DNA of 64,000 bases from Jatrophihabitans sp. GAS493 (lineage in GTDB: Bacteria > Actinomycetota > Actinomycetes > Mycobacteriales > Jatrophihabitantaceae). The DNA lies in contig NZ_LT907982.1 in assembly GCF_900230215.1 (NCBI RefSeq), positions 2,418,001 through 2,482,000 of the forward strand, given 5' to 3'. The translations under genes and the position numbers were made by a program. Position 1 is the first letter of the stretch; each line of letters opens with the position of its first letter. Below, in pieces: positions 29,620 to 31,454 of the stretch. Under the pieces are notes generated by a model. That model searched no databases and was not told the DNA's origin. It saw nothing but the letters and a program-made list of their open reading frames with translations.

Positions 29620-31110
29620 TCAGCTCAGGTCGAGCCCCGGGTAGAGGGGGTGGGCGTCCAGAAGCTCCGACGCCGCCGCCTGGGTGCGGGCCGCGAGGCC
29701 GTCGGTGAGGGTGTACTTCGCCTTCGAGGCACCCCCGTCGGCGGTGGCGGTCGGGGTGGCCGCGGAGAGCACGTCCACGATCAGTTCGGCCACCCGGTCC
29801 AGGTCGTCACCGGTGAAGCCGCGGCTGGTCAGCGCCGGGGTGCCGAGGCGTACGCCGGAGGTGTACCAGGCACCGTTCGGGTCGCGCGGGATCGCATTGC
29901 GGTTGGTGACGATGCCCGACTCGACCAGCGCCGACTCGGCCTGCCGGCCGGTCAGCCCGAAGGAGGTGACGTCCAGCAACACCAGGTGATTGTCGGTGCC
30001 TCCGGTAACCAGCCGGCCGCCTCGCGAGCTCAGACCCTCGGCCAGCGACACGGCGTTGTCGGCCACCGCCTGGGCGTAGTTTGCGAACTCGGGCTGGCGG
30101 GCCTCGGCGAGCGCGACGGCCTTGGCGGCCATCACCTGACCGAGCGGACCCCCCAGCACCATCGGGCAGCCACGGTCGACGGCGTCGGCGTATTCAGGCT
30201 GGCAGAGCACCATGCCGCCACGGGGGCCACGCAGTGACTTGTGCGTCGTCGTCGTGGTGACGTGGGCGAACGGCACCGGGTTGAAATCGCCGGTGAAGAC
30301 CTTGCCGGCCACCAGCCCCGCGAAGTGGGCCATGTCCACCATCAGCGTCGCGCCGACCTCATCGGCGATCTCGCGCATGGTTGCGAAGTTGACCCGACGC
30401 GGATAGGCCGAATAGCCCGCGATGAGGATCAATGGCTTGAATTCATGGGCCATTCGCCGGACCTCGGCGTAGTCGAGCAGCTCGGTCTTGGGGTCGGTTC
30501 CGTAGGAGGACTGGTGGAACATCTTGCCCGAGATGTTGGGGCGGAACCCGTGGGTGAGGTGCCCGCCGGCGTCCAGCGACATGCCGAGCATCCGCTGATC
30601 GCCGAGGGCACTGCGCAGGGCGCTCCAGTCGGCGTCGCTGAGGTCGTTGACGTGCTTGGCCCCGGCCGCGGCCAGTGCCGGCGACTCGATCCGCTGAGCG
30701 AGGATGGCCCAGAAGGCAACCAGGTTGGCGTCGATGCCCGAGTGGGGCTGAACGTAGGCATGCGGGGCGCCGAAGAGCGCCTTCGCATGCTCGGCGGCCA
30801 GCGACTCCACCGTGTCGATGTTCTGGCAGGCGGCGTAGAAACGATGCCCGATGGTGCCTTCGGCGTACTTGTCCGACAGCCAGCTGCCCATCGTCAGCAG
30901 CACGGCCGGCGAGGCGTAGTTCTCGCTGGCGATGAGCTTCAGCGAGGAGCGCTGGTCGGCCAGTTCGGCCCGGATCGCGTCGGCGATCTTCGGCTCGACG
31001 GCACCGATCACCTGCAGCGCGTTCCGGTAGGCGGCGCTGGCGGCCTCGCCGTCGAAGGGCTGGGCGAAGGCGTTGGCGATCGCGGTGGATGGTGGGGTGG
31101 TCTGTGTCAT
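29620..31110 (-). CDS. glyA: Serine hydroxymethyltransferase
   Basis: PLP enzyme interconverting serine and glycine while charging tetrahydrofolate with a one-carbon unit. The 496 residues are longer than the common 415-430 class and match a long actinobacterial subclass with an insert after residue 150 ([15 protein letters not shown]). The PLP lysine is K291 in [22 protein letters not shown] and HVQPHSG-like motifs lie near the N-terminus. An AGAGGCG ribosome site precedes ATG 31110. A ZTP riboswitch lies about 95 bases upstream. Confidence 0.95.
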
Positions 31111-31205
31111 TTGCGCGCCTCTCGTGATTCACCGGCTGGTTCACCGGTGGGATGCGGGCGACTCCGCGGCGGAGCCCCCTCGCGTTGACTGATCGAGTTG
31201 GTGGA

Positions 31206-31284
31206 GGGCACCCAGGCGCGCGGCTCATGCTCAGGTCGCTCCCCGGTGGTCGACCCACCTTAGAAAATGCGCCAGTTACGACCC
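31206..31284 (-). ncRNA. ZTP (pfl) riboswitch upstream of glyA
   Basis: Read leftward, the RNA has GGGUCGUAACUGGCGC (31284 down), the P2 hairpin GGUGG-gucga-CCACC, the conserved GGGGAGCGACC and, after a linker, GCGCCUGGGUGCCC. P1 pairs GGUCG with CGACC (31234-31238). The pseudoknot pairs GGCGC (31274-31270) with GCGCC (31219-31215). These are the conserved elements of the ZTP-sensing pfl RNA, which controls folate and purine genes including glyA. A TAAGCT -10 box at 31297-31292 would start the RNA at about 31285, just before P1. Confidence 0.92.
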
Positions 31285-31393
31285 GACGACGAGCTTACCG
31301 GCCCGACCGAAGCGAGTGGAAATCACCTGTGAATACTGTGACTGATCGATTCAAGGCGGACTCCGATCGCCGCGGATCGCGGTGAAGTCGACA

Positions 31394-31399
31394 TATACT
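31394..31399 (+). promoter_or_regulatory. Consensus-like -10 box of the 31455 gene
   Basis: TATACT is the best -10 match in this spacer and faces right; the start codon is 55 bases on, after GGGG. No clear -35 was found at 16-18 bases. Confidence 0.4.
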
Positions 31400-31454
31400 T
31401 CCGCTTGGCGTCGGCGTCCCCAGAGCGCGCGACCGCAAACGATGACGGGGGTAC

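Follow-up and report, generated by a model that had tools for sequence, protein, structure and literature searches.

The glyA locus and its leader

The window, a stretch of 64,000 nucleotides from Jatrophihabitans sp. GAS493, carries on its minus strand a serine/glycine hydroxymethyltransferase gene, glyA, behind a leader that contains a ZMP/ZTP (pfl) aptamer, two hairpins, and the ribosome site. The features to which we refer below, in the order of transcription, are the following (positions are those of the window).

31292..31297, minus strand: -10 element TAAGCT, with the transcript start inferred near 31285, at the P1 5' strand (direct reading, and box position in 55/61 leaders)
31203..31289, minus strand: ZMP/ZTP (pfl) aptamer, RF01750 (56.9 bits, full model)
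31286-31278 with 31239-31231, minus strand: P1 strands (RF01750 alignment)
31270..31273, minus strand: J1/2 segment GGCG, the 5' strand of the pseudoknot (alignment with the conserved ACUGGCG block)
31259-31255 with 31249-31245, minus strand: P2 strands (RF01750 alignment)
31214..31221, minus strand: GCGCGCCU, P3 loop, containing CGCC (31218-31215), the 3' strand of the pseudoknot; put forward as the anti-SD strand (alignment and RNAfold)
31154..31183, minus strand: leader hairpin A, around GGCUCCGCCGCGGAGUC (RNAfold); no U-run after it; differs in the sister species
31130..31149, minus strand: leader hairpin B, around CACCGGU and GCCGGUG (RNAfold); no U-run after it; differs in the sister species
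31113..31124, minus strand: glyA ribosome site CGAGAGGCGCGC (RNAfold and complementarity); identical in the sister species, L010
29620..31110, minus strand: glyA, 496 amino acids, PRK13580 type (NF010094, 847.8 bits, cut-off 735)

When the whole 64-kb window was searched with cmscan, RF01750 was the only Rfam family above its cut-off, and its minus-strand match at 31289-31203 (56.9 bits versus 39; E-value of 1.4e-06 for the window and 2.4e-8 for the genome) covers positions 1 to 86 of the 86-position model, that is, its full length. The genome as a whole holds this one RF01750 match, at the glyA leader. P1-J1/2-P2, P3, and the GGCG:CGCC pseudoknot are all present; 19 of the 21 listed pairs are standard, the others being a G-G pair at the outermost position of P1 and an A-G pair at the second position of P3. 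Score, architecture, and the one-carbon target gene glyA all agree with RF01750 membership, and the element upstream of glyA is, as judged from its sequence, confirmed as a ZMP/ZTP riboswitch aptamer. An earlier, sequence-only reading had assigned the element to this class at 31284-31206, with serine hydroxymethyltransferase as the target. The covariance model supports the class and extends both boundaries slightly, the gene downstream is indeed glyA, and the conserved blocks named in that reading (P1, P2, GGGGAGCGACC, and the pseudoknot strands) are all legible on the minus strand.

The ZTP riboswitch class was reportedly validated by Kim et al. in 2015. In the available text of PMC2864571, glyA is among the commonest pfl-associated genes; since it is already published as a pfl target, the window riboswitch adds a new member to a known class. 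Thus, both class and target are known already, the aptamer, of a type known to sense a folate-stress signal, is ordinary, and its annotation is routine. Of 150 genomes sampled from the order, 67 contain RF01750, as do 12 of 24 from the family. Among the 57 of these 150 genomes with NF010094 above cut-off, it lies directly upstream of the NF010094 gene in 37, by hand tally.

For comparison, ZTP leaders were collected with a regular-expression filter for the aptamer core, which dropped 4 of the 86 loci L001-L086 (L025, L043, L053, and L059) and 39 of the 80 loci L095-L174, the latter being glyA loci from named genomes and the best 80 of at least 580. The 123 loci kept, some of which represent one genome twice, were clustered to 61 representatives. 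One RF01750 match, at a contig edge in G123, was left out of the fetched loci, and the start codons of seven loci were reassigned by rule. By cmscan, RF01750 is above cut-off in 41 of the best 80 glyA loci; filter and cmscan disagree at L124 and L150 (matched by cmscan yet filtered out) and at L164 and L166 (kept without a cmscan match).

Promoter and spacer

The box TAAGCT, at 31297-31292, sits 22 nt before CTGGCG. A TANNNT box 18 to 24 nt before CTGGCG occurs in 55 of the 61 representative ZTP leaders versus 0.5% of 2072 background windows, and this near-fixed distance to P1 suggests that the window transcript probably begins at P1. The proposal that TAAGCT is a -10 box right before P1 is matched by comparable boxes in most representatives; a consensus scan of 31000-31400 found no paired -35/-10 sigma-70 consensus.

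Counted from the end of CGCCTGGG, the aptamer-to-start spacer is 100 nt, the longest among the 61 representatives (median, 34); the 95 bases given previously are correct by the end point used there. Hairpins A and B are predicted by RNAfold to use neither P3 nor the pseudoknot strand. A scan for terminators of the U-run type found no terminator-like site in the spacer, in keeping with the earlier remark that no clear U-run terminator is seen; its sole match lies inside the aptamer, at 31288-31270. Taken together, scan and RNAfold show no hairpin of this type between the aptamer and glyA that would share sequence with P3 or the pseudoknot strand.

The leader also holds a 34-codon frame at 31211-31107 on the minus strand, with a GTG (31211-31209) at P3 and a TGA that overlaps the glyA ATG (ATGA). 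We considered this frame as a conserved leader peptide and rejected it: the sister-species spacer is 2 nt shorter, and there the frame continues in frame into glyA.

The ribosome site is complementary to the aptamer

The glyA ribosome site reads CGAGAGGCGCGCAAAUG, and within it AGGCGCGC (31120-31113) is a perfect 8-nt complement of GCGCGCCU (31221-31214), the segment that includes the 3' pseudoknot strand. In RNAfold, whose energies and folds come from a pseudoknot-free model, the resulting SD:aptamer helix is part of the minimum-free-energy (MFE) fold of the leader (-80.4 kcal/mol), with pair probabilities of 0.93-0.99, and it is extended in the predicted OFF state by pairing of CGAG (31124-31121) with CUCG (31197-31194).

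How unusual is this pairing? The aptamer-dependent cost of opening the glyA SD is 3.8 kcal/mol with a hand-set SD core, or 3.3 kcal/mol under the rule used for controls, because that rule chooses another SD core. The leaders of 146 other genes of the same genome, defined by ORF rules on 464 kb without annotation and placed behind the same aptamer, gave -0.18 +/- 1.8 (s.d.) kcal/mol; two of the 146 reach the higher glyA value, and three reach the lower one. Under a separate protocol, glyA SD occlusion was 4.9 kcal/mol, reached by none of 25 chimeras. Duplex energy by itself is only moderately unusual in this GC-rich genome, the glyA value being reached by 5 of 147 leaders with glyA counted among them. 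Masking the aptamer leaves a cost of 5.2 kcal/mol for opening the glyA SD (the controls average 6.2), so an ON state that is wide open is not predicted.

Within the 22 bases preceding the start, the motif AGGCGC occurs in 5 of 14 same-family glyA genes; the rate among control genes is 1 of 146 (p 1.4e-5 by Fisher's test, uncorrected for relatedness), and of the 51 other ZTP representatives one has it before its start. Two of the five glyA genes belong to one genus, and two more (L093 and L094) stand behind apparently damaged aptamers.

A proposed translational switch and its rivals

Based on the aptamer, the position of the promoter box, the gene, the complementarity, and the predicted fold, all of which are shown here, we posit with a probability of roughly 0.58 that the glyA 5' leader is a ZTP/ZMP riboswitch that starts at P1 and acts as a translational ON switch via SD capture. 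The ligand, the direction of control, and the translational level are inferred for this leader. In this model, transcription would initiate at P1, and a shortage of 10-formyl-THF would cause ZMP/ZTP to build up and bind the aptamer. In the ligand-bound state, the GGCG:CGCC pseudoknot and P3 would be held, leaving the ribosome site, about 100 nt farther along, free, and GlyA would be made. In the ligand-free state, AGGCGCGC at the ribosome site would capture GCGCGCCU, with CUCG:CGAG pairing alongside, and translation would be blocked. The OFF fold is computed to be far more stable than the ON fold (-79.1 versus -61.2 kcal/mol, before the pseudoknot term of about -5 and the ligand term), which suggests that the choice between the two would be kinetic and made during transcription; with the aptamer finished about 100 nt ahead of the ribosome site, there would be room for such a choice.

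That control may act on translation had been suggested from the sequence. This suggestion is favored but not proven: the perfect complement between the ribosome site and the pseudoknot segment, the pairing in the MFE fold, and the spacer free of terminator-like sites all argue for it. A transcriptional ZTP switch is unlikely; in it, transcription without ligand would be stopped either by a leader hairpin (31183-31154 or 31149-31130) or by the action of Rho on leader RNA that is not translated. The switches of Clostridium beijerinckii (PMC10085676) and Thermosinus carboxydivorans (PMC7337938) are transcriptional, as far as the accessible parts of both papers describe them, and the unusually long leader here does contain two stable hairpins; however, neither hairpin is followed by a U-run, both are predicted to leave P3 and the pseudoknot strand unused, and the spacer yields no terminator-like site in a scan for terminators of the U-run type.

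A second rival keeps control at translation but has the SD hidden by local leader pairing (CGAG:CUCG and its neighbors), with the aptamer not pairing with the SD directly. The cost of SD opening that persists when the aptamer is masked and the lack of any general excess of aptamer-SD pairing across 61 leaders are consistent with such an arrangement, but the perfect 8-nt complement of the aptamer segment and the 3.3-3.8 kcal/mol that the aptamer contributes point the other way, and we consider this rival quite improbable. Least credible is the idea that the element is an aptamer-like remnant whose function has been lost, to which we give very little weight. Two members of the same family do have sub-threshold ZTP aptamers before glyA, at L093:323-406 (+) and L094:327-226 (-), with 27.8 and 26.7 bits against the cut-off of 39; both are apparently damaged, the pseudoknot strand being changed in L093 and P2 being disturbed in L094. 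The window aptamer, by contrast, scores 56.9 bits with its conserved blocks preserved, and its sister-species counterpart has hardly changed, whereas the hairpins of the two leaders differ.

Comparison with other ZTP systems

Relative to RF01750 as a class, the window leader has the full aptamer, the conserved blocks, and the glyA target in common (to the extent covered by the text of PMC2864571 at hand); we see no difference in the aptamer, and the 100-nt distance to the start codon sets the window at the far end of the 61 leaders. For C. beijerinckii, the portion of PMC10085676 available describes strand displacement that proceeds through P3 and the pseudoknot; there and in T. carboxydivorans (PMC7337938, likewise a partial text), P3 and the pseudoknot face competition from a strand farther downstream, as we propose here. 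Unlike in those two transcriptional switches, the proposed competitor in the window is the ribosome site itself, and the spacer has no terminator-like site. In the excerpted text of PMC7484762, the decision of the Fusobacterium ulcerans ZTP switch is under kinetic control. The ZTP mechanisms described in the literature that we found are transcriptional, although this coverage is partial and says little about what is in print overall; for a Pectobacterium ZTP switch, a translational lacZ fusion was used, and the part of the source at hand does not state the level of control.

The switches of Streptomyces, Micromonospora, Actinoplanes, and Blastococcus share with the window the aptamer class, the PRK13580-type glyA, and the placement of the TANNNT box (55/61 combined representatives). 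Their spacers, in contrast, span 26-57 nt in the kept loci versus 100 nt in the window; their ribosome sites are mostly of the GGAGG or AGGAG type, and general aptamer-SD pairing is not supported across the 61 representatives.

How far does the pairing extend among relatives? Two leaders of the window architecture were found, and they are nearly identical. In the sister species, the ribosome site is unchanged, the only base that differs in the aptamer lies at the end of P1, and the leader hairpins are more divergent; the aptamer effect there is 1.1-3.7 kcal/mol, depending on the folded length, and at one folded length the SD:aptamer pairing probability is about 0.003. The effect is 2.0-3.3 kcal/mol in L005; L008, whose ribosome site is likewise GGAGGCGC, shows an effect of about zero. 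Across the 61 representative leaders, there was no excess of aptamer-dependent SD occlusion over chimeras (Mann-Whitney p 0.15); the 90% level was reached or exceeded by 9 of them. Pairing of the SD to a strand used in the ligand-bound state is thus predicted in the window, weaker in the sister species, and not in excess among the 61. By eye, Streptomyces and Micromonospora leaders had seemed to pair GCCU-GGG-CCN with the SD, but folding of the 61 leaders did not support general SD sequestration by an aptamer strand in actinobacterial ZTP leaders, and we rejected that idea. In three leaders of genes that by eye resemble folD (L038, L042, and L073), the ribosome site is covered by a hairpin that follows the aptamer directly, e.g., CTCCTCAC and GTGAGGAG.

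The predicted translational coupling, whose full form is seen only in this genus, is plausible. If true, it would mean a translational ZTP switch whose ribosome site mimics a pseudoknot strand; the sensor is ordinary, and the coupling alone would be a little unusual.

Relatives without the switch

Among the best 80 of at least 580 glyA loci, 39 lack RF01750 above cut-off and 41 have it. A search 4-9 nt ahead of the start codon placed a TANNNT box at 6-7 nt in 28 of the former and in none of the latter; that spacing makes these 28 loci look leaderless. Within this sample, the leaderless-looking PRK13580-type glyA genes (28 loci within L098-L172) come mainly from Mycobacteriaceae and Nocardioidaceae, together with two Acidimicrobiales, and the 39 loci without a switch include three from Streptomyces (L149, L164, and L166) with a recognizable aptamer 3' end below cut-off. 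On a quick GlyA tree of 70 rows, comprising the window and 69 of these best 80 of at least 580 loci, and with good support for 20 of its 67 inner branches, switch versus leaderless takes two changes, or five if "other" is scored as a third state. Since so few changes suffice, the contrast is a lineage pattern rather than many independent events, and we do not count it as independent evidence.

A broader joint reading combines these observations, and we regard it as possible rather than probable. The genus glyA ribosome site would be a copy of the aptamer's 5' pseudoknot strand, and one 8-nt segment would either close the sensor when ligand is present (ON) or bind the ribosome site when ligand is absent (OFF), i.e., the strand exchange of transcriptional switches shifted to translation. 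Among close GlyA relatives, moreover, a TANNNT promoter would start transcription either at the aptamer or at the AUG, riboswitch-controlled and leaderless glyA being alternative states.

Within the same best 80 of at least 580 loci, the GlyA of Nocardia otitidiscaviarum (L157), which has a ZTP switch, groups with Streptomyces (a 12-row fork with a support of 99), and this grouping suggests that gene and switch may have been transferred together.
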